DNA from: Faecalicatena orotica
GTDB lineage: Bacteria; Bacillota; Clostridia; Lachnospirales; Lachnospiraceae
Assembly (NCBI RefSeq): GCF_003149245.1
Contig: NZ_QGDL01000002.1
Location: 186,001-250,000 of the forward strand
DNA length: 64,000 nt
Direction of reading: 5' to 3'
Shown here: positions 39,818-60,287 of the stretch, piece by piece
Layout: each line of letters starts with the position of its first letter
How positions within the stretch are numbered: position 1 is the first letter of the stretch
The notes under the pieces: model-generated
Databases searched by the model: none
Told to the model about the DNA's origin: nothing
The model's input: the letters and a program-made list of their open reading frames with translations, nothing else
Translations under genes and position numbers: made by a program

Positions 39818-41365
39818 TTGAAGAACGAATTAGTGATTGTCCTCGATTTCGGCGGACAGTATAACCAGTTAGTCGCAAGGCGTGTCAGAGAATGTAACGT
39901 GTATTGCGAAATCTATTCTTATAAGACCGATATAGAAAAAATCAAAGAAATGAAACCGAAAGGGATTATCCTGACGGGGGGGCCGAACAGTTGTTATGAG
40001 GAGGATTCCCCGACTTATTCTAGAGAACTTTTTGAACTGGGAATTCCTGTGCTGGGACTGTGTTATGGCGCCCAGCTGATGATGCATGTCTTAGGTGGTA
40101 ATGTGGGACGTGCCGAAGTGCGGGAATATGGTAAGACGGAAGTGCTGATTGACAAGCAGGATTCGAAGGTATTTGAAAATGTATCTACACCTACGATATG
40201 CTGGATGAGCCACTTTGACGCTATTTCACAGGAGGCTCCGGGATTTGAGATTACAGCTCATACGGCTGATTGTCCTGTAGCGGCAGCTGAGAATGAGGCA
40301 GAAGGACTGTATGCGATTCAGTTCCATCCGGAGGTGCTTCATACAGTGGAAGGCACAAAGATGATCAATAATTTTGTGAAAAATGTTTGTGGCTGTGCCG
40401 GAGACTGGAAGATGGATGCTTTTGTTGAGGAAACGATTGCGGCTATCAGGGAGAAGGTTGGTAACGGAAAAGTACTTTGTGCTTTGTCCGGTGGTGTAGA
40501 TTCATCTGTGGCAGCTGTTATGCTTTCTAAGGCTATCGGATCACAGCTGACTTGTGTATTTGTGGATCATGGCCTGCTTAGAAAAAATGAAGGCGATGAA
40601 GTGGAGGCGGTTTTCGGACCGGAAGGTCATTATGATCTGAACTTTATCAGGGTCAATGCCCAGGAGCGGTTCTATGAAAAACTTGCCGGTGTGACGGAGC
40701 CGGAAGAGAAGAGAAAGATCATTGGTGAAGAGTTTATCCGTGTTTTCGAGGAAGAAGCGAAGAAGATCGGAACAGTAGATTTCCTTGTACAGGGGACTAT
40801 TTATCCAGACGTCGTAGAGAGTGGTCTGGGCGGAGAATCAGCAGTCATTAAGTCACATCATAATGTAGGCGGGCTGCCGGATTATGTTGATTTTAAAGAA
40901 ATTATTGAGCCGCTGAGAGATCTGTTTAAGGACGAGGTGCGCAAAGCTGGATTGGAACTGGGGATACCGGAGAGGCTGGTGTTCAGACAGCCATTCCCGG
41001 GGCCGGGACTTGGAATCAGGATCATCGGGGAAATAACCGAAGAGAAAGTAAAGATTGTTCAGGATGCCGACGCTATTTACCGCGAAGAAATGGATGCGGC
41101 AGGAATGAACAAGATTGTCGGCCAGTATTTTGCAGCGCTTACGAATATGCGGTCTGTAGGAGTTATGGGAGATGAACGCACCTATGATTATGCAGTGGCA
41201 TTAAGGGCTGTGAATACGATAGACTTTATGACAGCAGAATCCGCAGAAGTGCCTTGGGAGGTGCTGCACCGGGTTACCAGCAGGATTGTAAATGAAGTAA
41301 ATCATGTAAATAGAGTATTCTATGATCTGACGGGGAAACCGCCGGGGACGATAGAGTTCGAATAA
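39818..41365 (+). CDS. guaA: GMP synthase (glutamine-hydrolysing)
   Basis: A 515-residue two-domain enzyme that aminates XMP to GMP with ATP and glutamine. The N-terminal class I amidotransferase domain (to about 195) has [15 protein letters not shown], nucleophile Cys82 in GLCYGAQ, and the His-Glu pair in IQFHPEV. The ATP-pyrophosphatase domain has the P-loop LSGGVDSS (about residue 224) and HHNVGGLP; the C-terminal dimer domain ends with [14 protein letters not shown] 39818 follows GCAGGAGGA at the right distance; a TTG at 39800 is less likely. It stands alone with its own promoter, leader hairpin and terminator. Confidence 0.97.
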
Positions 41366-42117: not shown

Positions 42118-42140
42118 AATATTTCCTTTCTGCCTAAGTT

Positions 42141-42182
42141 AAGTACAAAACAAGTACAGTTAGTAAGTACATTTTAAGTACA
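42141..42182. repeat. Four direct repeats of AAGTACA upstream of the ribbon-helix-helix gene
   Basis: AAGTACA at 42141, 42152, 42165 and 42176 (start spacing 11, 13, 11), plus AAGTACG at 42203. About one helical turn apart, so one face of DNA is presented; ribbon-helix-helix repressors bind arrays like this. On the minus strand the unit reads TGTACTT. Confidence 0.7.
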
Positions 42183-45948: not shown

Positions 45949-47670
45949 TTAGTGCTCCGTATGCAGCAGCATATGTGCCCTGTGTGACAGTGGTTTATCG
46001 AAGAATTCCTCATATATCACCGCGATATCTTCATTTTCATGAGAAAATCTCACCTCTGCATCGCTGTCCAGCCCATAGAGTTTCTTCCCTCTTTCGTGCG
46101 CCAGTTCTTCGCCATCGTGGATTGGCTGTCCGCCGCCGCCCACGCAGCCGCCGGGGCAGGCCATGACTTCTACGAAATCGTACTGGACCTCGCCTCTCTG
46201 CATTCGTTCTAACAGGTTCCTTGTATTTCCAAGTCCGCTGACTGCAGCGATTCGGAGTGTTGTTCCGTTTATTGTGAAATCGGCCTCCTGTACGCCGGAA
46301 TTTGCATCAAATCCTTTGCTTCTTACCGGTTTGAAGATATCAGCATGTGGATTCTCTCCTGTCAGGGTATGGTAAGCGGTACGAAGTGCCGCCTCCATGA
46401 CGCCTCCGGTTACCCCAAAGATCAGTCCCGCGCCGGAGCCGCTTTGCATAGGCCGGTCGCTTTCAATATCCTGTAAGGTGTCGGGGCAGATATGTGCAGA
46501 ACGGATCATCTTAACAAGCTCTCTTGTGGTAATTACCGCATCAATATCATGTCCCGCGTATTCCCCGTAAAAAAGTTCTTTCTCGCGTTCCCCTTTTTTG
46601 GCAACACACGGCATGACGGATACGGTATAAATGTCATCGGGAGAAACGCCTATTTTCTCCGCAAAATACGTTTTCATGACGGCACCGAACATTTGCTGCG
46701 GGGATTTTGCCGTAGACAGCTGCCTTACCAGATGCGGGTACTGGGATTTTACAAACCGCACCCATCCCGGGCAGCAGGACGTAAACATAGGCCTGCTTTT
46801 CAGCTCCCCGTTCGTAAACCTGCTGATGAATTCCCCCGCCTCCTCCATGATGGTCAAATCGGCCGAAAATGCGGTATCAAAAACATAGTCCACGCCCATC
46901 CGCTTCAGGGAATCCATGATTTTGCCAACAGTTGCATCCTCAGGCTCCATTTCCAGTTCTTCACCCCATGCCGCACGCACGGCCGGAGCTACCTGCGCGA
47001 CTACGATCTTTTTCTGATCCGCGATGGCTTCCCAGACTTTCTCTGTATCATCCCGTTCTCTTAAGGCACCTACCGGACAATGGGTAATACACTGGCCGCA
47101 CAGGGAACAGTCTGCATCTTCAATACGTCTGTGTCCGGTTACACCGATGGTTGTCCTGGAACCCGTGCCTTCCACATGCCAGATTCCCAGCCCCTGTACT
47201 TTTTCACATATCTGCACGCACCGCATACATTTGATGCACTTGGCAGAATTCCGGATCAGAGGAAACTTCTGGTTCCACGGTCTTTTATCGATTTCTATTT
47301 TGAAGGGAATGTCAATGATGTTTAAATCATTGGCGATTTTCTGGAGGCTGCAGTTTCCGCTGCGTGCACATGTCACGCACTGGCAGTCGTGCTGGGACAG
47401 GATAAGCTGTACATTTCTTCTGCGGTCCATTCGTACCTTCGGGCTGTTTGTATAGATGACCATCCCTTCTTCTGCCACATTATTGCAGGAAGTAATCAGC
47501 CGGTCAGAGCCTTCTAACTCAACCACACAGACACGGCATGCCGCGATCTCATTGATCCCTTTCAGGTAGCAGAGTTTGGGGATCGGTATACCATTCTGGC
47601 GGGCAGCCTCCATGATAGTAGTATTTTCTTCTGCCTGTATTTTTTGATTGTCTATCATAAACGTTACCAT
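45949..47670 (-). CDS. [FeFe]-hydrogenase (ferredoxin-domain-bearing HydA)
   Basis: A 573-residue cytosolic hydrogenase. Modules in order: a [2Fe-2S] ferredoxin domain (about 1-75, with AACRVCVVELEG), a His-Cys3 cluster region (HDCQCVTCARSGNCSLQ), two [4Fe-4S] sites (CIKCMRCVQICE and CSLCGQCITHCPVG), and the H-cluster domain with all three motifs: TSCCPGW, MPCVAKKGE and MACPGGCVGGGGQP. The small-subunit region ends the protein (DIAVIYEEFF). It interconverts H2 with protons and electrons. The upstream gene overlaps by seven bases and encodes a GltD-like flavoprotein, so electrons are probably exchanged with NAD(P)H. This suits group A2 (GltD-linked) in genetic context, by inference. Confidence 0.93.
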   Translation of the reverse strand: MVTFMIDNQKIQAEENTTIMEAARQNGIPIPKLCYLKGINEIAACRVCVVELEGSDRLITSCNNVAEEGMVIYTNSPKVRMDRRRNVQLILSQHDCQCVTCARSGNCSLQKIANDLNIIDIPFKIEIDKRPWNQKFPLIRNSAKCIKCMRCVQICEKVQGLGIWHVEGTGSRTTIGVTGHRRIEDADCSLCGQCITHCPVGALRERDDTEKVWEAIADQKKIVVAQVAPAVRAAWGEELEMEPEDATVGKIMDSLKRMGVDYVFDTAFSADLTIMEEAGEFISRFTNGELKSRPMFTSCCPGWVRFVKSQYPHLVRQLSTAKSPQQMFGAVMKTYFAEKIGVSPDDIYTVSVMPCVAKKGEREKELFYGEYAGHDIDAVITTRELVKMIRSAHICPDTLQDIESDRPMQSGSGAGLIFGVTGGVMEAALRTAYHTLTGENPHADIFKPVRSKGFDANSGVQEADFTINGTTLRIAAVSGLGNTRNLLERMQRGEVQYDFVEVMACPGGCVGGGGQPIHDGEELAHERGKKLYGLDSDAEVRFSHENEDIAVIYEEFFDKPLSHRAHMLLHTEH

Positions 47671-49496
47671 AATCGTTCCCGACCTCCTTTAAATATTCCG
47701 TAACCAAAATGATCGCACCGCAGACATCTGGATGCCTCCTGTCTTGCCTCATTTTCCGTCATGCAGTTTTCCACACCGTCAAAATCGAGGACCCTCTCGC
47801 ATGCCTCACGCTCGGTTAAGTTGATTCTTCCGCACGGAGTGCGTTCAAACAGATTGGCCTCCGGTATTTCCACGTCACAGGATATTTCATGACGGTATCC
47901 GAGGTACTCGTCTATGTTGGCAGCTACAACCTTGGCCGCGGCTATCGCTTTTATGACAGAGGCCGGACCACTTGCACAGTCGCCTCCTGCAAATACTCCC
48001 GGGATATTTTCAAAAGTACCGGAACTTTCGGTTACAATTTTACCTCTTACGACCGGTATGCCGGCCTCTTCAAAATGTGCCGTCTCAATGTTCTGCCCGA
48101 TTGCAACAATCAATACATCACATGGTATGTAAATGTCCTCTTCCCCGGTAGGTCTGATACTGGCACGCCCGTCCCGGATGGTGCTGATCATCTGGGGCGT
48201 GACAGAGATTCCCCTGACATGTCCGTTTTCATCCACATCAATGGCTGACGGAGCCTTTAATGTCTGTAATTCGATTCCCTCGGCAACGGCCCCGTCGATC
48301 TCACCCGGAAGGGCTGTCATATCAGCCACCCTGCGCCGGTATACAATGCTTACCTTCTCGGCACCAAGCCGTTTAGCGGTCCGCACGGCATCCATAGATA
48401 CATTGCCGCCCCCGATAACCGCAACATGCTTGCCAGACAAATCCATGATCTCATTCCTGCCTACGTTGCGCAGGAACTGCACAGCTGACAGGACGCCGTC
48501 GGCATCTTCTCCGGGGAGTCCCAGTTTCTTGTCCGTGCTGGCCCCGATCGTAATCAGCACGGCGTCGTACTGTTTCCTTAGCTCCTGGATGGTGATATCC
48601 TGACCGATCTTCAGGCCGTGTTTTACTTCTACGCCCGTCTTTAAAATGCTGTTGATGTCCTCCTCTAAACGTTCCTTTGGAAGCCTGTAGTTCGGAATTC
48701 CGTAGCGCAGCATTCCTCCGAGTTTCGGAAGCATCTCATACACGGTCGTCTGGTGCCCCATGAGCTGTAAATAATAAGCCGCACTTAAACCGCCCGGTCC
48801 TCCGCCGAGAACTGCTACACGTTTCCCAGTGCTGGGCGCGCACTCCGGCGGGTTAACCTCTCCGGCAAAATCAGCGGCCGCCCGTTTCAGCCCCCGGATA
48901 TTGATAGAATCATCCATCATGTTCCTTCTGCACCGCGCCTCACAAGGATGCTCGCAGATAAACCCGCATGTGGTCGGAAAAGGATTGTCTTTTCGGATCA
49001 GGCGGATTGCATCGGCATATCTTCCCTCCAGAATGAGGGCCACATATCCCGGGATATCTACCCGGGCAGGGCATAGTGAAACACACGGTACAGCCTGATG
49101 GAAGGTGCAGGTGCACCGCCCGTTCTGGATGTGTTCTATATAATCATCCCGGTATCCGATCAGCCCTTTATAAACCATCCTTGCGGCTTCATAGCCAATC
49201 GCACAGTCCGCAGAGTCCATGATGGACAAAGCAGTTTCTTCCATAATATCTAAAGTTTCCATAGTCGCATTTCCATCAAGGACATCCTTGATAAAATGAT
49301 TCAGCTGCCCGAGCCCGATCCGGCATGGCACACATTTCCCGCAAGTCTGCGCATGACATAATTCTAAAAACGCGCGTGACATATCCACAGGACATAATCC
49401 CGGAGGGCTGGACTCAATTCTCCGCTCCAGATCTTTATAGAGCCCTTCCATGACGATCCGGGCCCTGTTTGGCGAAGCAATTTCTAATCTGCTCAT
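47664..49496 (-). CDS. NuoF 4Fe-4S domain/GltD-like flavoprotein, hydrogenase partner
   Basis: A 610-residue protein. The first 100 residues match only the iron-sulfur end of NuoF (CHAQTCGKCVPCRIG, DCAIGYEAA), lacking the FMN/NADH domain. A GltD-like region follows: Fe-S ligands in CVSLCPARVDIPGY, CGFICEHPCEARCRR, an FAD site VAVLGGGPGGLSAAYYL (about residue 230), and an NADPH-type Rossmann site VAVIGGGNVSMDA. The ending GDCASGPASVIKAIAAAK is also GltD-like, followed by CLRCDHFG. It most likely links hydrogenase electrons with pyridine nucleotide. The stop overlaps the hydrogenase start, so a 1:1 complex is likely. Confidence 0.88.
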   Translation of the reverse strand: MSRLEIASPNRARIVMEGLYKDLERRIESSPPGLCPVDMSRAFLELCHAQTCGKCVPCRIGLGQLNHFIKDVLDGNATMETLDIMEETALSIMDSADCAIGYEAARMVYKGLIGYRDDYIEHIQNGRCTCTFHQAVPCVSLCPARVDIPGYVALILEGRYADAIRLIRKDNPFPTTCGFICEHPCEARCRRNMMDDSINIRGLKRAAADFAGEVNPPECAPSTGKRVAVLGGGPGGLSAAYYLQLMGHQTTVYEMLPKLGGMLRYGIPNYRLPKERLEEDINSILKTGVEVKHGLKIGQDITIQELRKQYDAVLITIGASTDKKLGLPGEDADGVLSAVQFLRNVGRNEIMDLSGKHVAVIGGGNVSMDAVRTAKRLGAEKVSIVYRRRVADMTALPGEIDGAVAEGIELQTLKAPSAIDVDENGHVRGISVTPQMISTIRDGRASIRPTGEEDIYIPCDVLIVAIGQNIETAHFEEAGIPVVRGKIVTESSGTFENIPGVFAGGDCASGPASVIKAIAAAKVVAANIDEYLGYRHEISCDVEIPEANLFERTPCGRINLTEREACERVLDFDGVENCMTENEARQEASRCLRCDHFGYGIFKGGRERLW

Positions 49497-49732
49497 TGAT
49501 TTAATCCCCTTTTTACATAATGCTATTCTGCTTTACCCCGCAGTGTTTCATATTATATCATCGAACAGGGCGGGTTGTAATTACCTGGGACATAAGTAGT
49601 TTATTTAACATGGTTGACAGAAAATTGACAGGGGAATCAGGCAGGAATGCCCGGTTATTTCAGGGGAAATTCGCATCTTTTTGTATAATTTCGAAAATTA
49701 TGATGTCAAGTGTTGTTTGTCACACTATAGTT

Positions 49733-49762
49733 ACAGTTCATTTTTTTCTTAATACCGTTTGT
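49733..49762 (+). promoter_or_regulatory. LytTR response-regulator binding site (two direct repeats)
   Basis: ACAGTTCAT (49733-49741) and ACCGTTTGT (49754-49762) each match the LytTR consensus [TA][AC][CA]GTTN[AG][TG] at every position, with the standard 12-bp spacer. It lies 30 bp upstream of the -35 for the following operon, an activating position. The 424-base gap 49497-49920 otherwise contains the promoter and one dispersed hairpin. Confidence 0.8.
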
Positions 49763-49792
49763 CATATATAAAAAGCGTTATACCCCAAATTA

Positions 49793-49821
49793 TTGTAAAC
49801 ATATCCCCCAGATTCTACAAT
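49793..49821 (+). promoter_or_regulatory. Promoter of the lipoprotein/membrane protein/GH3 operon
   Basis: TTGTAA (49793-49798), 17-base spacer, TACAAT (49816-49821), downstream of the LytTR box. The start of transcription would be near 49828, leaving a leader of about 90 bases that holds the dispersed repeat at 49858. Confidence 0.65.
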
Positions 49822-49857
49822 AGAAAGCAGGTAGAAGAACGTTCGGATATCAATTAA

Positions 49858-49885
49858 TTACTGTTTGCAGGCCAGTGGGCAGTAA
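49858..49885. repeat. Dispersed stem-loop repeat, copy 5 (degenerate)
   Basis: TTACTGTTT pairs with GGGCAGTAA through three G-U wobbles; the loop is 10 bases. It is the most diverged family member and lies in the leader of the GH3 operon. Confidence 0.5.
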
Positions 49886-49920
49886 CATCATATGAAAGAG
49901 GTATTGAGAAGGAGGAACTT

Positions 49921-51228
49921 ATGAAAAGAGGAAGAGTTATAGCATTGCTATTAGCGGCAGGTATATCTTCCGCAGCTTTTATGACTGGATGTGCAAATCA
50001 AAGTAATGGTACATCAAAAGTAACAGAACAGAAAGAGTCAAATTATGTACTGTCTTTTGTAGCGGCAGATAAAACAAACTGGGACCAGGAGGTAACAATA
50101 GGAAATCATACCTATACCATTGCAGTGAACCTTTCGGATGATAATTCATTTGAATTGAAGGGAACATGTGTAGGAATTGCAGAGGAAACGGGTCAGCAGG
50201 AGGGAATGGCAGCTCCGGGAACCGGTGCGCCGGATATGCAGGAAACGGAACCAGTCAGTCCAGGCACAGAGGATTCAAGAGCAGCAGATTCGGATACTGA
50301 CAATTCAGGAGAAAAATCTGCCCAGACAGAGGATGCAGGTTCAAAAAGTACGGAAGACCTAACGGCTTATGATTTTACAATAAATGGAACTTGGTCTTAT
50401 GAGGATGGCTGGGGATATACGTTGACGTTTGATGACGGGCAGGATACATCCGTCACTGCGAACTTTGATAAAGCAAGCAGCAGGCAATATTTTTATTATG
50501 ATTTGGCACCGACAGTGGACGGGGAGGCACAGGAAGCGGTTCAGGTACAGTTTCAGGCAAAAGATGTGGAATTCAGAAACGAAATGGCAGATGACTATGT
50601 AATAGCGGAAGAGCGGAATGCGACCTACATTTTTGAAGGAAATGGAAACAGCCAGACAGGTAATGCCATTAATATTAAGATTTACTGTGAAGAGGATGGC
50701 ACAGTTGCCGTATTAAGTCAAAACGGAAGCACTATGACCTATAGCGGGGGGACATGGACCGAAGATACATCAACACATGAGTTTACAATTGATGCAGGGG
50801 GACCAATAACCGCAGACTACTGTGATATATCTGGTAAAGAAGGATATCGTCTGAATTACACCTCTACTGGGGGGATGGGACCTTCCACAACGCTTACATG
50901 CTATCTGCCTCTGGCTGAAGGAATAACTTCAGATGATTATACGGACGAAGACTTTGAGGGAACTGTTGTTAAAAACCTTACCTGTACAGAAGCCGATTAT
51001 ACCATTGAACTTACCGAAAAAGGGTTTTTAAAAGTGTGCTCTGAGGGAACTGTTAATGAGACTTCAACCTATACATATAATGAAGGGGCAGATACATACT
51101 CACTTATAATCGGCGGACAGACTTACAATACGACGAAAAACGGTGACACTTATACAGCGGATGTGAAGATAACAGTCACCAGTATGTTTGGGACGGAAGA
51201 ATATGAGCGCACATTTACGTTTCAGTAA
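49921..51228 (+). CDS. Lipoprotein with three beta-rich repeats, unknown function
   Basis: A 435-residue secreted lipoprotein: MKRGRVIALLLAAGISSAAF then lipobox MTGC (Cys24). About residues 90-148 form a low-complexity acidic linker rich in Ser, Glu, Asp, Thr and Gly. The remainder shows three similar beta-strand blocks (about 150-235, 240-330, 335-435) with patterns such as NGTWSYEDGWGYTLTF, GGTWTEDTSTHEFTI and TYTYNEGADTYSLII, reminiscent of lipocalin-like repeats. No catalytic residues are seen. It is first in an operon with a membrane protein and a membrane-anchored GH3 enzyme, so it may hold substrate or stabilise the enzyme. AGAAGGAGGAACTT precedes the ATG. Confidence 0.72.
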   Translation: MKRGRVIALLLAAGISSAAFMTGCANQSNGTSKVTEQKESNYVLSFVAADKTNWDQEVTIGNHTYTIAVNLSDDNSFELKGTCVGIAEETGQQEGMAAPGTGAPDMQETEPVSPGTEDSRAADSDTDNSGEKSAQTEDAGSKSTEDLTAYDFTINGTWSYEDGWGYTLTFDDGQDTSVTANFDKASSRQYFYYDLAPTVDGEAQEAVQVQFQAKDVEFRNEMADDYVIAEERNATYIFEGNGNSQTGNAINIKIYCEEDGTVAVLSQNGSTMTYSGGTWTEDTSTHEFTIDAGGPITADYCDISGKEGYRLNYTSTGGMGPSTTLTCYLPLAEGITSDDYTDEDFEGTVVKNLTCTEADYTIELTEKGFLKVCSEGTVNETSTYTYNEGADTYSLIIGGQTYNTTKNGDTYTADVKITVTSMFGTEEYERTFTFQ

Positions 51229-51270
51229 AGTCTGAAATGAACATACATTTGATAAGTAAGGAGAAAGAAT

Positions 51271-51903
51271 ATGTCTAATCTGAAAGTTCAGGAAAAATTA
51301 GATAAAATGAAAAAATTGCGTAAAGTCTTGTTTGTATTCAGTATTATTGCTGCCGTCGGAAGTCTGGTGATGCTTATCATGTTTAATTTTGCACCAGTAT
51401 TCAACCTCACAGTAGAAGGCACAGATAAGTTTGGAAATGGTGTGGATTATCCAGGCTGGCAGGCAATCTACTATGGCATCGGGATTCAATATATTCCGGG
51501 GTATTATGAGTTTGGGTTTAATATATGGACCTGTCTTGGCATGTATGTACCTATATTATCATTGATAATCTGTACAGTTATGTACAGGAAAGGGAAAAAC
51601 AAAAGAAAGGCAGTGCTGGAATATGTTATGGCAGCTGCACTGACTTTTGGTGGAATTACACTTGTAAACTGTACAAGGCTGGCTGTATTGACAGCATCCA
51701 GTGAAGGTCTGAATAATTTTAAGGATACATACCTGTTACCCGCAGTTGAAGCGGGAACATTCAGACTTCTGGCGTTTCCGAAAGCGCTTTGTGCGGTATG
51801 TCTGACAGCAGCTGCTATAAAAATTATAAATGGAAGTTTTCTTTTATATCAGAAAGCATATGCAAGAAAGATTCCTGTTATAACAAAGATGCCACAGCAG
51901 TAG
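51271..51903 (+). CDS. Small integral membrane protein of the GH3 operon
   Basis: A 210-residue protein with four predicted membrane helices: about 18-38 (VLFVFSIIAAVGSLVMLIMF), 85-108, 118-140 (AVLEYVMAAALTFGGITLV) and 160-185. Between the first two is an extracytoplasmic loop with VEGTDKFGNGVDYPGWQAIY and several Tyr and Trp residues. No family is recognised. It sits between the lipoprotein and the GH3 gene and is probably needed for placing or regulating that enzyme. A TAAGTAAGGAGAAAGA ribosome site precedes the start. Confidence 0.7.
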   Translation: MSNLKVQEKLDKMKKLRKVLFVFSIIAAVGSLVMLIMFNFAPVFNLTVEGTDKFGNGVDYPGWQAIYYGIGIQYIPGYYEFGFNIWTCLGMYVPILSLIICTVMYRKGKNKRKAVLEYVMAAALTFGGITLVNCTRLAVLTASSEGLNNFKDTYLLPAVEAGTFRLLAFPKALCAVCLTAAAIKIINGSFLLYQKAYARKIPVITKMPQQ

Positions 51904-51923
51904 AAATTAAAGGAGAAAAAACT

Positions 51924-54900
51924 ATGACGAAACGTGCGAAAAAAAGAATCATCTCTCTTTCGGCAATCATCGCTGTTGTATTGATTCTAATGACTGTAAT
52001 CACAAATGTTATGTATTATTATAAAGAATATATGGACCAGTTCCTTGGGGCAGGTACTATCAAAACAGAAACGAGCAGTGATGGTTTAAGCGGTGATTAT
52101 ATTGAGTATACAGCTACATCTGATACAGAATCCAGAGACAATGCAGCGGCCATTACACAGGAGACTGCCGAAGAGGGAATTGTGCTTCTGCGCAATGATG
52201 AAAAAGCGGATGGTGTTAATGGGAAGGCACTTCCACTGGTAAGCAGTTCCGATGAGGCCGCGTCCAAAAAAGTTACCATTTTAGGTTATAAATCCTGGCA
52301 TAATAACATGTCAGGCGGAGAAGATCCAGCGACTACAGAGAATGCAGTGTCTATAGGTGTCGGACTATCCAATTATTTTGATACGAACCAGGCTGTAACT
52401 GATTTATATGCGACGGCATCCGATGATTTTGCAGATCCAGAGTCAGCACTTGCAAGTGCAGTAAGTACTTATGCGGAATACGACACAGCAATTATTACGG
52501 TTTCCCGTAATTCAGGCGAGGGTAATGATCAGGAAAGAGACCTTGGTACTGCAGAGTATAACCGCACCGGACTATCCCTTAAGAATGCAGAGCTTGCTTT
52601 AATTGATTATGCATGTAAAAATTTCTCGGAAGTCATTATCGTGGTTAATGCAGCAAATACGATGGAATTAGGATTCCTTGACCCTAATGATGAAAACTAT
52701 AAAACATCCGGTATGTACACGGATCCATACAGCGGAAACACTTATGATTTTAGTAAAATTACAGGCGCATACTGGGCTGGCTGCTGCGGATCTCAGGGCG
52801 GCACTGCTTTGGCAAGAATTGTTTCAGGGGATGTTAACCCATCTGGACATCTGTCAGATATTTATGCCCGCAATTTGAGAGAAGATCCAACTTATTATAA
52901 TTTTGGAAATTTTGAATATCAGAATTCCAGTGATTTCGATACATATCAGGATTCCTCTGTTTATTTTGTGGAATATGAAGAGGGAATTTATACTGGATAC
53001 CGTTATTATGAGACCGCGGCATATGAGGCAATGCAGGGAAATTATGAAGGCTATGATTATGGACAGAGCGTTGTATATCCATTCGGGTATGGGCTTTCCT
53101 ACACAGATTTCTCTATGGAATATGCAAGTGACCCTTTGTTTGATGAGGAGACAGAGGAATATACTTTTGCTGTAAAGGTTACCAATACGGGTGAAACTGC
53201 GGGAAAAGCTGTAGCGCAGATTTATGTAAGTGCCCCGTGGGAGGCAGGTCAGGTGGAAAAGTCTCATGTTCAGCTGATTGGCTTTGCAAAAACGCAGGAA
53301 TTGGAGCCTGGTGCCAGTGAAACTTTAACAATAACGGCAAGCAGGGACTATTTCAGTTCTTATGATTATGTAAATGAAAAAGCATATATTCTAGATGAAG
53401 GAGAATATACATTCTATCTTTCCGAAAACAGCCATAGTTGGACAGAGATTGATAAAGAGGACACCTCGCATGTATGGTCACAGGAGATTGATTCTAAAAT
53501 TGTTTATAATGAAGATGGGGCAGGTAAGAGGACAACTGATGAAGTTGTTGCTACAAATGTATTGGATGATTCCACAAATTATAGATTTACAGATTATACA
53601 GAAGGTAAGACTGGCGATGGTTACATCCATAACTTCAGCCGTAAAGACTTTGCAGCATCTTTCCCAACGGCACCGGAAGGTAATGACCTTTTATTGACAG
53701 ATGAACGGGCCATTAAAGAGATCGAAATATATGACGTGTGGGATGAGGAGCAGAATGAGATCAGCGAGATGCCAGAGACAGATATAGATAAGACAGACTA
53801 TACGCTTGCAGATATGCGCGGTGTCGATATCGATGATGAGAAATGGGATGACTATATTAATCAGTTTACCGTAGACTCTATGGCATATATGTTCATGAAC
53901 GGCGGCTGGAATGAAATGGGAGATAGTGAGAACGGCGTTCCGAAGAGTTATGATGCAGATTCGCCATACGGGTTCTATGCAGCGCAGCTAAAAATTTCGG
54001 AATATGACATTAATGTATGGTATTGTGGGGCACCAATGGTTGCGGCCACATTCAATACAGAACTTTCAGAACGTCTGGGCTCTGCATTTGCTGAGGAGGC
54101 ATATCAGTTAAAACAAGAAGACGGGCAGGGAATAACCGGCTTGTATGGCTATGGAATTAATACGCACCGCTCTGCTTTTGCAGGACGCAATTATGAGTAC
54201 TATTCAGAAGACAGCCTGCTTTCGGGAAAAATGGCGGCAGCAGAGGCTTCAGGGGCGTCGGAAAAAGGTCTGATTACATTTATGAAGCACTACGCACTGA
54301 ATGAGCAGGAACTGAACCGGCAGAAAAATGGATACTGTGCATGGTGCAATGAGCAGACATTCCGTGAAATTTACAACAGATCTTTTGAAATTTATATAAA
54401 AGAAGCCACCATGACTATAAATTATTATGATGTTGACGATGACGGCGAATATGCAATGACCAGTAAAGAGATGTCTGCAGCTACAGGTCTGATGAGCGCT
54501 TACAACAGAATTGGAGCGACCTACGCGGGAGCATCTGTGGTTATCAACAGTATTTTAAGGGATGAGTGTGGATTTACCGGAACGATAGTATCTGATGCAG
54601 GCGGTGAACCAAACACATACATGACTACAGATTACTCTTTACGGAGAGGACAGAATCTGACGTTGACGAATAATGGTACAAATGGGCTTTATGATACAAC
54701 AAGTGCCACAGCAGTATACTGGCTGAAGCAGTCCACCCGATACCTGCTTTATAACAAGGCAAATTCAAATGCAGTAATGGGAATGGCTCCTGGCGACAAT
54801 GTAAGTTATACGATGTCCCCGTGGCAGAAGATATTGATAGCAGTCTGGAGTGTAGTGGTTATACTTTCTCTTGCTGGGATTGCATACTGCATTATGCTGG

Positions 54901-54971
54901 GAAGGGGTAAAATAAAATTAAAAGAAATTATCGTTCAGGAAAAGACACCAGAAGATGAAGAAGAATACTAA
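51924..54971 (+). CDS. Circularly permuted GH3 glycosidase with membrane helices at both ends
   Basis: A 1015-residue protein. An N-terminal membrane helix (residues 8-28, IISLSAIIAVVLILMTVITN) precedes the normally C-terminal alpha/beta sandwich of GH3 (about 65-380; ETAEEGIVLLRND is its start, and YPFGYGLSYTDFSM its end). An FnIII-like domain (about 395-510, VTNTGETAGKAVAQIYV) comes next, then the TIM-barrel (about 640-940) with MKHYALNEQELN and nucleophile Asp891 in TIVSDAGG. A second helix lies near 970-990 (ILIAVWSVVVILSLAGIAYC), then a charged tail. The barrel is thus last, opposite to usual order. The substrate is unknown, presumably a beta-glycoside or wall glycan outside the cell. 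An in-frame ATG at 51789 lies in the previous gene; AAAGGAGAAA supports 51924. Confidence 0.85.
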   Translation: MTKRAKKRIISLSAIIAVVLILMTVITNVMYYYKEYMDQFLGAGTIKTETSSDGLSGDYIEYTATSDTESRDNAAAITQETAEEGIVLLRNDEKADGVNGKALPLVSSSDEAASKKVTILGYKSWHNNMSGGEDPATTENAVSIGVGLSNYFDTNQAVTDLYATASDDFADPESALASAVSTYAEYDTAIITVSRNSGEGNDQERDLGTAEYNRTGLSLKNAELALIDYACKNFSEVIIVVNAANTMELGFLDPNDENYKTSGMYTDPYSGNTYDFSKITGAYWAGCCGSQGGTALARIVSGDVNPSGHLSDIYARNLREDPTYYNFGNFEYQNSSDFDTYQDSSVYFVEYEEGIYTGYRYYETAAYEAMQGNYEGYDYGQSVVYPFGYGLSYTDFSMEYASDPLFDEETEEYTFAVKVTNTGETAGKAVAQIYVSAPWEAGQVEKSHVQLIGFAKTQELEPGASETLTITASRDYFSSYDYVNEKAYILDEGEYTFYLSENSHSWTEIDKEDTSHVWSQEIDSKIVYNEDGAGKRTTDEVVATNVLDDSTNYRFTDYTEGKTGDGYIHNFSRKDFAASFPTAPEGNDLLLTDERAIKEIEIYDVWDEEQNEISEMPETDIDKTDYTLADMRGVDIDDEKWDDYINQFTVDSMAYMFMNGGWNEMGDSENGVPKSYDADSPYGFYAAQLKISEYDINVWYCGAPMVAATFNTELSERLGSAFAEEAYQLKQEDGQGITGLYGYGINTHRSAFAGRNYEYYSEDSLLSGKMAAAEASGASEKGLITFMKHYALNEQELNRQKNGYCAWCNEQTFREIYNRSFEIYIKEATMTINYYDVDDDGEYAMTSKEMSAATGLMSAYNRIGATYAGASVVINSILRDECGFTGTIVSDAGGEPNTYMTTDYSLRRGQNLTLTNNGTNGLYDTTSATAVYWLKQSTRYLLYNKANSNAVMGMAPGDNVSYTMSPWQKILIAVWSVVVILSLAGIAYCIMLGRGKIKLKEIIVQEKTPEDEEEY

Positions 54972-55054: not shown

Positions 55055-55206
55055 TGACTATTAAATGGAACTTGGGCTGCTTTATTGACAAGGCAAAAAA
55101 AGCATAATAATATTAAAGATAGAGATTAGCTGCATATATGAGAATTGTAAGTATAGCAGATATCGTACTGTATGAAAGTATGAATTAAGAGGGGATAAAG
55201 GAAACC

Positions 55207-56583
55207 ATGAAGGTTCTGACAGAGTATATTAATATTTGGGCCGATCACGCATTTTGGTTTCAAATGTTCTGTGTGGCGGTGCTGACGGTCATGTCATTAG
55301 AATCCATTTCTAAAAAACACAGAGCGCTATTAAAAGCGGCACTTGAGGTTTTGTTGTTAATTTTAATTTTTTTTACTACTAATTTTTTGATATACCTGCT
55401 TTCAATTAAGCATATTTATTTCACGGGAGTGGGTTCTTGGATGTCTTATTTATTCGGTGTTGTTCTGTTCGCAGCATTTTTTTGTAAATATCCTGTACCA
55501 GCAAAGATTGTGACAGCATCCGCGGTCTGTTCTATGTCAGTAATCGTAATTGAACTGGGAACTTCTATTGGAAATGTAATAGAAGGATATGTTAACGGTT
55601 TTGACAGTTTGTGGACTAAGATCATAGCCGATTTCCTGATTTTGTTTGCAGCATGGACGATTAAAAAAAGACCAGTATCTGAATACGAAGTCAGCACATA
55701 TGCTGCAAGGCTAAATGTTACCTGTTGTACGATTTCCACGGCTTTTGTGATTATATATGATTTTTTAGCAATTTACTTTTTGACGCCCCAAAAAACGGAT
55801 GTTACGTCTGTTAGAATACTGATATCATTGATTTTAATTGCGTTGTATGTGATTAACGCGATTAATTATCTGATGACTTATTCCTTGTGCAGAGAACAGA
55901 AGCATGTGCTGGAACTGATGTCAGAAGCTCAGTTTACTCAGAGTGCAGCACAGCTTCTGACAATATCTGACCATAATCTTAATGAACTGAGAAAAATAAG
56001 CCATAATATCAATAATCAGTATTCTTATATGAGGGTACTTTTGCAGAATCAGGATTATGATGGACTGAAGGGATACTTTGATGAGGTTCTGGGAACTTTT
56101 TCAAAACCATTTATTTCGTATATAGATTGTGGTAACAGAATTCTGAACGCAATATTTAATTTGGAAAAAGCAAAGGCAGATGAAGCTGGAGTGAAAATGG
56201 ATTTTATGATTCTTGTGCCATCCGAACTGTCAGTCAGTGAATTGGATTTATGTAATTTAATTACCAATATCGTGGATAATGCCATCGAAAATTGTCTTGC
56301 AGAGCGAATTGAATCTCCGGTCGTCTCCATTACTATGAGTGTACAGGGAGATTATCTGTTTGCCAGGTTTACGAATCAGACAAAGAAAAAAAAGAGTTTT
56401 CTGGAAAAACCTATTGTTTCTACAAAGAAGGACCATGTATATCATGGAAAAGGAATTGGCATAGCAAAGCACATTGTCCATAAATATAACGGTCATTATA
56501 GTAACAAAATTGAGGATGGGGTTTTTATTGCAGAATTTCTTCTGGATCTCTGCATAGGAAAAAACAAGGAGGGGAATTCATGA
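55207..56583 (+). CDS. GHKL sensor histidine kinase (AgrC/VirS-like), first system
   Basis: A 458-residue kinase. The N-terminal 230 residues contain six or so membrane helices without a large external domain, as in peptide-pheromone sensors. The phosphoacceptor region has KISHNINNQYSYM (His266), then the GHKL ATPase with LITNIVDNAIENC and GKGIGIAKHIV. It belongs to the agr-type group that pairs with LytTR regulators. Its stop overlaps the next gene start (ATGA at 56580). Located directly after the GH3 operon, it is the best candidate to act through the LytTR box at 49733. AGGGGATAAAGGAAACC precedes the ATG. Confidence 0.88.
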   Translation: MKVLTEYINIWADHAFWFQMFCVAVLTVMSLESISKKHRALLKAALEVLLLILIFFTTNFLIYLLSIKHIYFTGVGSWMSYLFGVVLFAAFFCKYPVPAKIVTASAVCSMSVIVIELGTSIGNVIEGYVNGFDSLWTKIIADFLILFAAWTIKKRPVSEYEVSTYAARLNVTCCTISTAFVIIYDFLAIYFLTPQKTDVTSVRILISLILIALYVINAINYLMTYSLCREQKHVLELMSEAQFTQSAAQLLTISDHNLNELRKISHNINNQYSYMRVLLQNQDYDGLKGYFDEVLGTFSKPFISYIDCGNRILNAIFNLEKAKADEAGVKMDFMILVPSELSVSELDLCNLITNIVDNAIENCLAERIESPVVSITMSVQGDYLFARFTNQTKKKKSFLEKPIVSTKKDHVYHGKGIGIAKHIVHKYNGHYSNKIEDGVFIAEFLLDLCIGKNKEGNS

Positions 56584-57320
56584 AAACAGTTCATGTAGCT
56601 GTCTGCGATGATGAGAAAAAAGCTCTTTCCATCATTTCCGCCTCTGTGGAGGCAGTATTTAGTGAGGAAGGGGTGGAGACAGAGATTGCGACTTGTTTAT
56701 CGCCGATGCAGCTTCTAGAGCATATGAACCATACAGATTATGATTTGATTTTTCTTGATATCTGTATGTCAGAAATGGACGGTATAGAGCTTGGCAGGAA
56801 AATTACAGCAGCTGGTGGCAGCAGTTCTATTGTATTCGTTTCAAGCAGAATGGACAGGATGTATGATACATTTGCAATCCAGCCATTTGGATTTGTGAGA
56901 AAAGGGAATTTCATGGATGATATTAATGAGGTAATCCATCGTTATATTGAACAGGAGAAAAAGCCCAAAGAAGCTCAGACAGTACATTTCAGGGACCGGC
57001 AGGGAGAGATTATTACAGTCAATATAGACAAACTAAGATATATTGAATGTTATAAGAATGTTCAAGAGATACATATATGTGGTAATGAGATAAAGAAGAT
57101 ATATTCCAGAATGGAAATACTGGAGGAAACACTGAAGAAATATGGGTTCATTAGGACCCATAAAGGTTATCTCGTAAATTGCAAATATATTAAGCGGTTT
57201 GACAGCAAAAAGGTAACCCTTTTAACAGGAGAAGAGCTCCCAATAGGGAGAAGCAGGTATCATGAGGCAATGGACGGATATATGTCCTATATTGGGACGC
57301 ATGGTATCTTATTAGGTTAA
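56580..57320 (+). CDS. LytTR-family response regulator, first system
   Basis: A 246-residue regulator. Receiver domain (1-120) with acidic pocket D10-D11, phosphorylated Asp60 in IFLDICMSEMDG, and a LytTR DNA-binding domain (about 140-240) with DKLRYIECYKNVQEIHICGN and GFIRTHKGYLVNCKYIK. LytTR proteins bind paired 9-bp repeats such as those at 49733-49762. It is coupled to the kinase before it (overlap of four bases). The next regulator begins 43 bases later. Confidence 0.9.
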   Translation: MKTVHVAVCDDEKKALSIISASVEAVFSEEGVETEIATCLSPMQLLEHMNHTDYDLIFLDICMSEMDGIELGRKITAAGGSSSIVFVSSRMDRMYDTFAIQPFGFVRKGNFMDDINEVIHRYIEQEKKPKEAQTVHFRDRQGEIITVNIDKLRYIECYKNVQEIHICGNEIKKIYSRMEILEETLKKYGFIRTHKGYLVNCKYIKRFDSKKVTLLTGEELPIGRSRYHEAMDGYMSYIGTHGILLG

Positions 57321-57363: not shown

Positions 57364-58077
57364 ATGCTTCAGATTGCTATTTGTGATGACGAAAAATTTT
57401 ACAGAGATAAGATGAAAATGTATCTGGAATCTTATCTGACCGACCATAACTTAGAAGCCACAATTCATCTTTTCCTTTCCGGCGAGGATTTCCTCTCCCG
57501 GAAGGAAAACGTCGTTAAATACGATATTGTTTTCATGGACATCAATATGAATGAAATGGATGGAATCCAGACGGCCATGCAGATACGCGCGTTTCAGTCG
57601 GAGACATTTATCGTGCTCGTGACAGCGTTTATCAATTATGTTCTGGACGGTTATAAGGTAAATGCGGTGCGCTATATCATGAAGGACTCTCTGGAGGAGG
57701 CGCTGCCTGAGTGTATGGATGCAATACTGCAGAAGATGCGCCTGCAGCAGGTCAGTTTTTCTTTTTCAGAAGGGGAGAAGAGGCTGTATACGGACAATAT
57801 CCTGTACATTGAGAGCCAGAGGCATAAGTCTGTTTTCCATTATCTGGAGTCCGGGGTTGTGACTTACCAGATTTATGAAAAACTCGATCAAATTGAGGCG
57901 GCCCTCGACGGGTATGGTTTTTTACGCATTCATAAAAGCTATCTGGTAAACATGAAGCACATCCGCAGGATCAGTAATTATACGGTACTTCTGGATCTTG
58001 GGGAGGAGCTTCCTGTTCCGCGTCTGCGGTACAGGGCGGTGAAGGAAGCATTCGTAGCATTTAAAGGAGTAGTGTAA
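57364..58077 (+). CDS. LytTR-family response regulator, second system
   Basis: A 237-residue regulator. Receiver with D8-D9 pocket and Asp59 in VFMDINMNEMDG; LytTR domain (about 140-235) with YTDNILYIESQRHKSVFHYL and GFLRIHKSYLVNMKHIR. It differs from the previous regulator enough to be an independent or duplicated system. Its stop shares a base with the kinase start (TAATG at 58077). The target site is not obvious; no perfect LytTR repeat is seen at its own or the following lipoprotein's promoter. Confidence 0.9.
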   Translation: MLQIAICDDEKFYRDKMKMYLESYLTDHNLEATIHLFLSGEDFLSRKENVVKYDIVFMDINMNEMDGIQTAMQIRAFQSETFIVLVTAFINYVLDGYKVNAVRYIMKDSLEEALPECMDAILQKMRLQQVSFSFSEGEKRLYTDNILYIESQRHKSVFHYLESGVVTYQIYEKLDQIEAALDGYGFLRIHKSYLVNMKHIRRISNYTVLLDLGEELPVPRLRYRAVKEAFVAFKGVV

Positions 58078-59348
58078 TGGAAATTTTTCTAAAGAGTCTT
58101 GCATTATCTTTGGTGATGAGTATAAGCTGCAAAGTATTTTTTGACACTCTCCTTGAAAAGAGGCGGTGGAGGCGCGGCTGGATCGAAAATACGGAATTGC
58201 TGGCATTTACACTGGGCATTATAATAATTTCTATGTCAGAAATACCTCCGTATGCCATACAGCCCATTCGTTTTACGGCAGTAATCTGCATAGCAGTGCA
58301 GATCTATTACCGTGTCAGGTTTGTTCAAAACGTGTTTCTGTCGATACTTTTCTGTGGAATCTTCTGGATTGTAGAGATACTGACGATTTCCTTCATTTAC
58401 CTGCTGCCGATCACTGGCATCAGTATACAGATTGTGGAGGAGTCTGTATCAGACATCCTTCTGCTTTGCCTGATGCTTTTGTTCCATTTCAAATATAAGG
58501 GGAAAACGAATGTAATGTCAGGGACGAAGTGGACCCGTTTTTTATTTTTCCCAGTCTTTTGCATGGTGATTATCATAGCCGCAACGATGTACCCCTGGAA
58601 TGGGCAGGAGGGTAATGAGTATGTCAGGGTACTTGTTCTGGCGGGATTCGGACTGGTGAATATGGCTGCATTTTATTTTCTGTGGGATATTCTGGTCAGA
58701 GAGGCGGAGATGCAGAATCTCAGGCAGGGCAGAGAGCGCACGCAGAACCAGATGAATATGTATCAGAGCATGCAGGAAAATTATGAGCGGCAGAGACGGT
58801 TTCTGCATGACTATAAGAACCAGCTGAACTGCATACAGGGGATGCTTGCGGAGGGAAAGACGGAAGAAACGATGGAGTATCTCACTGCGCTGAACGGAAG
58901 TATCCGTATGAATGCGGACCATGTGAATACAAATCATACGGCTGTAAATGTGGTGCTGAACCAGAAGTACAGTTATGCACGGGAGAAGGGGATTACCATG
59001 ACGATTTCAGTCAATGACCTTTCTTCCCTGACAATGGGTGAGGAGGACATCGTTACGATTCTGGTCAACCTCCTTGACAATGCAATCGAGGCCTGTGAAA
59101 AGCTGGAATCGAATAAAGTGATACAATTTAAAATGACAGTGGAGGATGGAGAACTCATTTTGTCGATAAGAAATCCGGTTAAGGAGCCTGTAAAAATCAG
59201 AGATAACAGGATCGCTACGACGAAACCGGAAGAGGGACATGGTATCGGCCTTATAAATGTCCAGTCTGTGGTTCAGAAAAATTGTGGGACCAGCATCCTC
59301 AGATGTGAGGACGGATGGTTTTTCTTTTCGGCTATGATACCTGTATAG
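58077..59348 (+). CDS. GHKL sensor histidine kinase, second system
   Basis: A 423-residue kinase with about six membrane helices in the first 205 residues, a dimer/phosphoacceptor region RRFLHDYKNQLNCIQGML (His244), and a GHKL ATPase with LVNLLDNAIEACE and GHGIGLINVQSVV. It belongs with the regulator upstream in inverted gene order compared with the first system. The phosphoacceptor HDYKNQ motif is the AgrC-like form. What it senses cannot be read; the small external loops suggest a peptide or membrane stress. Confidence 0.88.
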   Translation: MEIFLKSLALSLVMSISCKVFFDTLLEKRRWRRGWIENTELLAFTLGIIIISMSEIPPYAIQPIRFTAVICIAVQIYYRVRFVQNVFLSILFCGIFWIVEILTISFIYLLPITGISIQIVEESVSDILLLCLMLLFHFKYKGKTNVMSGTKWTRFLFFPVFCMVIIIAATMYPWNGQEGNEYVRVLVLAGFGLVNMAAFYFLWDILVREAEMQNLRQGRERTQNQMNMYQSMQENYERQRRFLHDYKNQLNCIQGMLAEGKTEETMEYLTALNGSIRMNADHVNTNHTAVNVVLNQKYSYAREKGITMTISVNDLSSLTMGEEDIVTILVNLLDNAIEACEKLESNKVIQFKMTVEDGELILSIRNPVKEPVKIRDNRIATTKPEEGHGIGLINVQSVVQKNCGTSILRCEDGWFFFSAMIPV

Positions 59349-60215: not shown

Positions 60216-60238
60216 ATCTAAATATATGTCAAAATTGT

Positions 60239-60287
60239 TTGACAAACATACTGGCAGTATGTATAATAAACATACCGTTAGTATGTT
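60239..60287 (+). promoter_or_regulatory. Consensus promoter with two TetR operators
   Basis: TTGACA (60239-60244), 17-base spacer, TATAAT (60262-60267): exact consensus. ACATACTGGCAGTATGT (60246-60262) is a perfect palindrome filling the spacer, and AACATACCGTTAGTATGTT (60269-60287) has 7-bp arms at the transcription start. Their centres are 24 bp apart. Strong autorepression by the TetR protein is expected. Confidence 0.8.

Follow-up and report, generated by a model that had tools for sequence, protein, structure and literature searches.

What controls a bacterial surface-enzyme operon that is preceded by repeats of the LytTR-binding type and followed by a sensor kinase and a LytTR response regulator? 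The locus that raises this question lies in Faecalicatena orotica (Lachnospiraceae; contig NZ_QGDL01000002.1, positions 186,001 to 250,000, forward strand). This stretch of 64,000 nucleotides is referred to here as the window, and coordinates are positions within it. In the window, genes for a lipoprotein, a protein with four transmembrane helices (4-TM protein) and a glycoside hydrolase of family 3 (GH3) are followed by a GHKL-type kinase gene starting at 55207 and a LytTR regulator gene starting at 56580. By computation, we established the gene order, its conservation, the boxes, the domain order of the GH3 protein and its catalytic residues. Taken together, these features make it probable that the locus is a self-contained sensor-enzyme module, in which the 55207/56580 pair would control the lipoprotein/4-TM/GH3 operon through three LytTR boxes. 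The initial annotation had proposed control by this pair, and sequence comparison supports the idea: both in a relative locus and among the nearest kin of the regulator, such genes lie by GH3 genes with similar phased boxes.

Two consensus repeats with a 12-bp spacer had been reported upstream of the operon. Both are present (ACAGTTCAT-N12-ACCGTTTGT, 49733-49762, absent from 100 of 100 shuffles of the window), but a third repeat, GTTGTTTGT, had been overlooked. The candidate operator thus consists of three direct repeats with an exact 21-bp period. Counting consensus matches was rejected as evidence on its own. The degenerate pattern WMMGTTNRK-N12/13-WMMGTTNRK has 4 sites on the forward strand of the 5.7-Mb genome and none on the reverse strand, whereas the control, the same pattern reversed, has 2 and 6 (both genome-wide pattern searches gave 0 reverse-strand sites, a number that looks low), and because this is the level of chance (4 versus 8), a match to the textbook consensus proves little. 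The GTTYRT triple, in contrast, exceeds chance: among 20000 dinucleotide shuffles of the upstream 400 bp, none contained it, and 32 contained a pair. The site also ranks top among 127904 window positions by score with a matrix that was trained partly on the same site. The case for these candidate boxes rests on the GTT-centred motif plus conservation.

Conservation was followed with a pattern-based contig scan using the lipoprotein (one genome per species, 84,980 species, with relatives of the window's own genome perhaps left out), which confirmed one relative locus, L012, in a Clostridiales metagenome-assembled genome. L012 carries all five genes in identical order (lipoprotein, 4-TM protein, GH3, GHKL kinase and LytTR regulator) between different flanks, with identities of 54% (within the alignment), 66%, 77%, 48% and 53%, respectively. 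Its promoter likewise has three repeats at 21 bp (0 of 20000 shuffles). The conservation of box, genes and two-component system that the initial annotation had named as a check is therefore found at this locus, and in both promoters the repeats lie about 21 bp apart, as in targets of LytTR two-component systems. It is unlikely that the boxes serve the divergent hydrogenase-type genes at 45949-49496 (named by eye), given that the L012 boxes have no such neighbours. The lipoprotein itself is rare, being full length in 2 of 397 family genomes (the window's own included), partial in 2 more, and present in one of the two genomes of the genus examined. In another genome of the family, G298, the lipoprotein, 4-TM and GH3 genes are present, and a regulator and kinase related to those of the window (40% and 26% identical) occur as well.

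Kinase sequence led to the same context. When the 397 genomes of the family were searched with a profile of three kinases (E≤1e-45), matches came from 6 places, spread over 5 genomes; L012 brings the number to 7. All 7 adjoin GH3 genes, including the 4 (L032 to L035) that were found by kinase sequence without regard to gene context. The GH3 of L033 and the first gene after the L034 regulator have the ordinary domain order, with PF01915 just below the cut-off. A draw of 391 genomes of the class gave no member of this kinase subfamily beyond the window's own genome. Profile searches scored only a few candidates per genome, and the contig scan was pattern based, so absences here are soft.

We then built a matrix from the six repeats of the window and L012 and ran it on 17 other promoters with 300 shuffles each (L009, L010, L011, L046 and L047 served as background scans only). 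For the held-out promoters of L025, L032, L033 and L034, pair and triple scores were reached by 0 of 300 shuffles; for L008, a detached lipoprotein operon, by 3 (pair) and 1 (triple). Among eleven other GH3 promoters of the same genome, the corresponding numbers were 1 for L036a, 6 for L038, 8 for L043 and 33 or more for the remaining eight. When whole loci were scanned on two strands, the top site of L032, L033 and L034 was the expected promoter, which in L025 and L008 took second rank. Across 19 GH3-operon promoters, GTT-type pairs peaked at a lag of 21 (6 cases, 4 of them from the window and L012); no other lag had more than 2. The regulators of L012, the window, L025, L032, L033 and L034 also separate by profile score (7.5e-88 or better, the next being 1.7e-47), a score biased by the presence of three of these six in the profile. 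On the regulator tree, 1 of 500 label shuffles was as clustered as the box regulators. The long-branched L036 regulator (15952) is placed among these, so that 2 changes are needed and the tree does not establish a strict single clade, which appears in 33% of bootstrap trees. The comparison took regulator open reading frames (ORFs) of 200 to 330 aa (the second regulator ORF of L042 has 176 aa), set aside L038 copies identical to L037 and did not contain the L035 regulator. Altogether, the operator seems specific to a single branch of regulators and not shared by all modules.

The distance between the boxes and the core promoter was also compared. Hexamers resembling a -10 element (TATTGT in the window, TATTGT in L012 and TACTGT in L025) follow the last repeat at distances of 28, 29 and 31 bp, and with an assumed 17-bp spacer the -35 element would fall some 5 to 8 bp past the repeats. 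In S. mutans promoters of the LytTR Regulatory System (LRS), the comparable distance is 4 to 11 bp (PMC6193735; for this and the other papers cited, statements refer to the part of the text available). This shared geometry is suggestive. The initial annotation had chosen another promoter, TTGTAA/TACAAT, which is present downstream of the boxes but perhaps is not the conserved one; counting both strands, the region holds 5 promoter-like sites, where shuffles average 1.7.

Table 1. Candidate operator and promoter elements and genes of the module (positions in the window)
Feature	Position	Strand	Remarks
LytTR box 1 (candidate), GTTGTTTGT	49712..49720	+	In register with boxes 2 and 3 at exactly 21 bp; three boxes also in L012
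LytTR box 2 (candidate), ACAGTTCAT	49733..49741	+	
LytTR box 3 (candidate), ACCGTTTGT	49754..49762	+	
Proposed -10 element, TATTGT	49791..49796	+	Putative, read partly by eye; 28 bp past box 3
Alternative promoter, TTGTAA-17-TACAAT	49793..49821	+	Choice of the initial annotation; 30 bp downstream of box 3
Lipoprotein, 435 aa	49921..51228	+	Lipobox-like MTGC; one stretch weakly GH43_C lipocalin-like
Four-helix membrane protein, 210 aa	51271..51903	+	Four hydrophobic segments; weak SUR7/claudin-like resemblance
Permuted GH3	51924..54971	+	C domain, Fn3-like domain, N barrel; hydrophobic segments at both ends; catalytic residues present
Promoter-like TTGACA-17-TAATAT for the kinase/regulator pair	55085..55113	+	2 overlapping sites; shuffle mean 1.0
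GHKL sensor kinase, polytopic membrane half	55207..56583	+	PF14501; six hydrophobic segments
LytTR response regulator, proposed box binder	56580..57320	+	PF00072 and PF04397 above cut-off; nearest kin share gene context and boxes

The three genes follow the promoter in the order first described, with intergenic gaps of 42 and 20 bp and sequences resembling ribosome-binding sites. In the GH3 protein, for which we took the ATG at 51924 rather than the longer ORF start, PF01915 (residues 88-361) and PF14310 (432-505) precede PF00933 (709-895), which is the permuted order of GlyA1. The acid/base Glu (SGEG) and the nucleophile Asp (SDAG) stand at the aligned columns, and the Lys-His pair, an Arg and the pocket Asp are kept as well, their roles being assigned by analogy to GlyA1 (PMC5104943). 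With that enzyme (PDB 5k6l), the window GH3 shares a C domain and Fn3 domain before the barrel and the equivalent Glu and Asp. It differs in the residue after the nucleophile, which is Ala here and Trp in GlyA1, and in its hydrophobic segments at both ends (beginning at residues 5 and 966); the word "transmembrane" is absent from the available text of the GlyA1 paper (PMC5104943). The protein is a putative exo-acting beta-glycosidase, probably held in the membrane.

The lipoprotein product contains MTGC, which is lipobox-like. A profile match at 2.9e-5 fell inside GH43_C of another protein, and direct pairwise comparison found no similarity. The structure model was poor (predicted local distance difference test [pLDDT], 52), a search of solved structures with the lipoprotein profile gave a single match at E 0.58, and a search of plasmids gave none. 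The four-helix protein, in sequence and in the fold of a low-confidence model (pLDDT, 62), weakly resembles the SUR7/claudin superfamily: PF06687 matched at E 2.4e-4, which is under the cut-off, and claudin/TARP/GARLH folds matched only at E of at least 0.054. Its profile matched only the window's own genome in a draw of 392 genomes of the order, and a search of viral contigs gave no match.

The regulator combines a receiver and a LytTR DNA-binding domain, and its start is overlapped by 4 bp by the adjacent GHKL kinase gene, the arrangement of a LytTR two-component system. We propose that the polytopic kinase detects a cue at the membrane and phosphorylates the regulator, which would then occupy the three repeats that immediately precede a weak promoter and, being spaced at 21 bp, face the same side of the helix. 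Bound in this way, it would switch on the operon, and the GH3 may be tethered by both ends at the outer face of the membrane, with the lipoprotein and the 4-TM protein as accessory surface parts. A separate promoter-like site precedes the kinase and regulator genes, which could therefore be expressed at all times. Regulator binding, activation and this constitutive expression are steps that we infer.

Several observations weigh against this interpretation. A motif-free search for phased 9-mers failed to single out the box site (its score of 17 was reached in all 60 of the shuffles made). L025, L033 and L034 have degenerate boxes whose lags vary from 20 to 22, and in L032 to L034 the promoter geometry appears only if the last repeat is picked with the -10 element in view. 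The best site of L025 is on the opposite strand upstream of the regulator gene, not before the GH3 gene, and the top-ranked one of L008 sits within the GH3 gene. L035, which carries a kinase paralogue from the same genome, is weak (17 of 300 shuffles for the pair and 6 for the triple). Eight of the eleven other GH3 promoters of this genome have no box signal, and the box is therefore not general to LytTR/GH3 modules. In G298, the regulator-kinase pair lies ca. 15 kb upstream of the lipoprotein-4TM-GH3 genes, heading a GH3-rich stretch, and in G148, the other genome of the genus, neither the lipoprotein nor the kinase was matched at the thresholds used. Were the boxes a chance match in an AT-rich intergenic region, a chance-level consensus count and a blank motif-free search would be expected, as found; but the three-fold 21-bp phasing, kept in L012 and more loosely in related loci, makes this explanation very improbable.

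What the module is for is a separate matter. It may serve nutrient harvest, the kinase sensing an outside beta-glycoside or its products and inducing the anchored GH3, which would free sugars for transporters encoded elsewhere. We give this purpose somewhat less than an even chance. It agrees with the suggestion of the 2010 Butyrivibrio paper (PMC2914790) and with the link of permuted GH3s to plant-feeding gut microbes (PMC5104943), the GH3 relatives are named beta-glucosidases and xylosidases, and the lipoprotein stretch is weakly like a GH43 accessory domain. However, no transporter or sugar-catabolic gene was seen among the five genes of the window or L012 (ORFs by eye), and L034 and G298 contain surface-type genes of other kinds (MBOAT, leucine-rich repeat [LRR]/repeat proteins and GtrA-like). 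A role in envelope remodelling, with the anchored GH3 trimming the cell's own surface glycans while the kinase reports the envelope state or an attacking peptide, is possible but more doubtful. The hydrophobic segments at both GH3 ends, the MBOAT acyltransferase and GtrA-type membrane protein of L034 and a polytopic sensor half without a recognised extracellular domain would suit it, although among the genes of the window unit none was recognised as serving resistance or the cell wall. It appears distinctly unlikely that the GH3 operon is the output of an Agr-like peptide quorum-sensing system. The polytopic GHKL-type kinase and LytTR-type regulator are of the appropriate types, yet the match of the regulator to the AgrA model is far below the cut-off (36.1 bits against 400), for the 55207 kinase no AgrC match was listed, and reading the ORFs around the unit and in L012 by eye revealed no AgrB- or AgrD-like gene, AgrB not having been searched by profile.

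Other LytTR-like features were found in the window and in related loci. Immediately downstream of the unit, at 57364-59348, lie another LytTR regulator and GHKL kinase whose ancestry differs; beyond them come genes for a putative lipoprotein, a TetR-type protein and an ABC transporter. The initial annotation had set the operon beside two LytTR systems, but we rejected this second pair as a member of the unit, since it is missing from L012 and its regulator is outside the box group; its kinase (58077) matches the AgrC model far below the cut-off. Near-identical palindromes, ACATACTGGCAGTATGT and ACATACCGTTAGTATGT, lie at 60246-60286 directly upstream of the TetR-type gene 60320 and are probable TetR operators; a second high-scoring matrix site, a phased LytTR-like triple at 60234, overlaps them and was discounted. 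Another consensus LytTR pair, TAAGTTAAG-N12-ACAGTTAGT, occurs at 42135-42164 in a short-ORF stretch after the gene ending at 41365, with no obvious target. In L025 (1970-2019), a strong three-box site precedes the G298 regulator gene in the divergent region, on the opposite strand, and may reflect autoregulation or a divergent target.

The combination of LytTR regulators and GH3 genes is not limited to this locus. The genome has 31 LytTR places and 21 GH3_C places, and 14 of the latter lie within 8 kb of a LytTR (mean of 1.76 and 0 of 20000 as many under a crude null of uniform random positions that ignores contig borders). This applies to 12 of 12 GH3 open frames of at least 940 aa and to 2 of 9 shorter ones. 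By our reading, there are about 13 regulator-kinase-GH3 modules, the window included. At the loci compared, 11 of 13 distinct GH3 proteins follow the permuted profile, and 10 of these 11 have hydrophobic segments towards both ends. Small multi-helix proteins come after GH3 in L035, L037/L038, L039 and L041. In eight other family genomes, hand-picked regardless of kinase matches (G013 had no GH3_C match; G207 and G551 are of the same genus), 4 of 8 long GH3s and 2 of 34 short ones were near LytTR (Fisher p, 0.008). An MBOAT acyltransferase was found in L034 (1141-5755), and LRR/repeat proteins in which SGNH-like motifs were seen by eye in L008 (1975-5945 and 11290-13059). The MBOAT and SGNH-like genes of some GH3 modules hint at surface polysaccharide acylation.

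The initial annotation knew of no named system with this composition, which is partly right. In Butyrivibrio proteoclasticus B316, three LytTR regulators were each noted in 2010 to have as a neighbour a secreted GH3 enzyme anchored by a C-terminal membrane helix, and a common function was inferred (PMC2914790). That case resembles the window in having a LytTR regulator near a membrane-anchored GH3, but in the available text it is covered by one sentence, without boxes, domain permutation, lipoprotein/4-TM partners or kinase subfamily, whereas the present genome has about 13 modules, and one branch shows phased boxes that are conserved. LRS promoters (PMC6193735) have 9-bp direct repeats, mostly with 12-bp spacers, upstream of the core promoter, as in the window; but LRS consist of a regulator and a membrane inhibitor, and the window instead has three repeats, a receiver-domain regulator with a GHKL kinase, and a GH3 operon as target. 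Gram-positive polysaccharide utilization loci (PULs) of Roseburia and E. rectale (PMC5320581) similarly place GH genes by regulators, and Ros-7 has one of the LytTR type. Ros-7, however, comprises GH25, GH43 and GH51 but no GH3, and it has transporters; no transporter of the kind typical of such PULs was seen among the five genes in the window or L012, and an ABC transporter lies further downstream in the window (61139 on). LytTR is not mentioned in the available part of PMC6344614, and a search of full texts (subscription papers and preprints outside its reach) returned no account of the boxes or of the module expansion.

With these results, a passing remark of 2010 becomes a defined architecture, consisting of a kinase/regulator subfamily, a three-repeat operator and a set of GH3 enzymes that are membrane-tethered and domain-permuted. 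We can imagine that some Lachnospiraceae-type bacteria have a large array of paralogous devices (about 13 here), each with one kinase, one regulator and one anchored GH3, and that the ligand of each kinase is produced or removed by the exo-glycosidase tethered beside it, giving closed glycoside-sensing loops with their own promoter codes, the 21-bp triple box being the code of one branch, although we consider this rather unlikely. To our knowledge, few of the signals to which the LytTR/GHKL systems of gut clostridia respond have been identified. About 13 modules in one genome suggest that many distinct glycosides or envelope states are sensed by dedicated kinases, and the paired enzyme is a direct clue to the cue of each.

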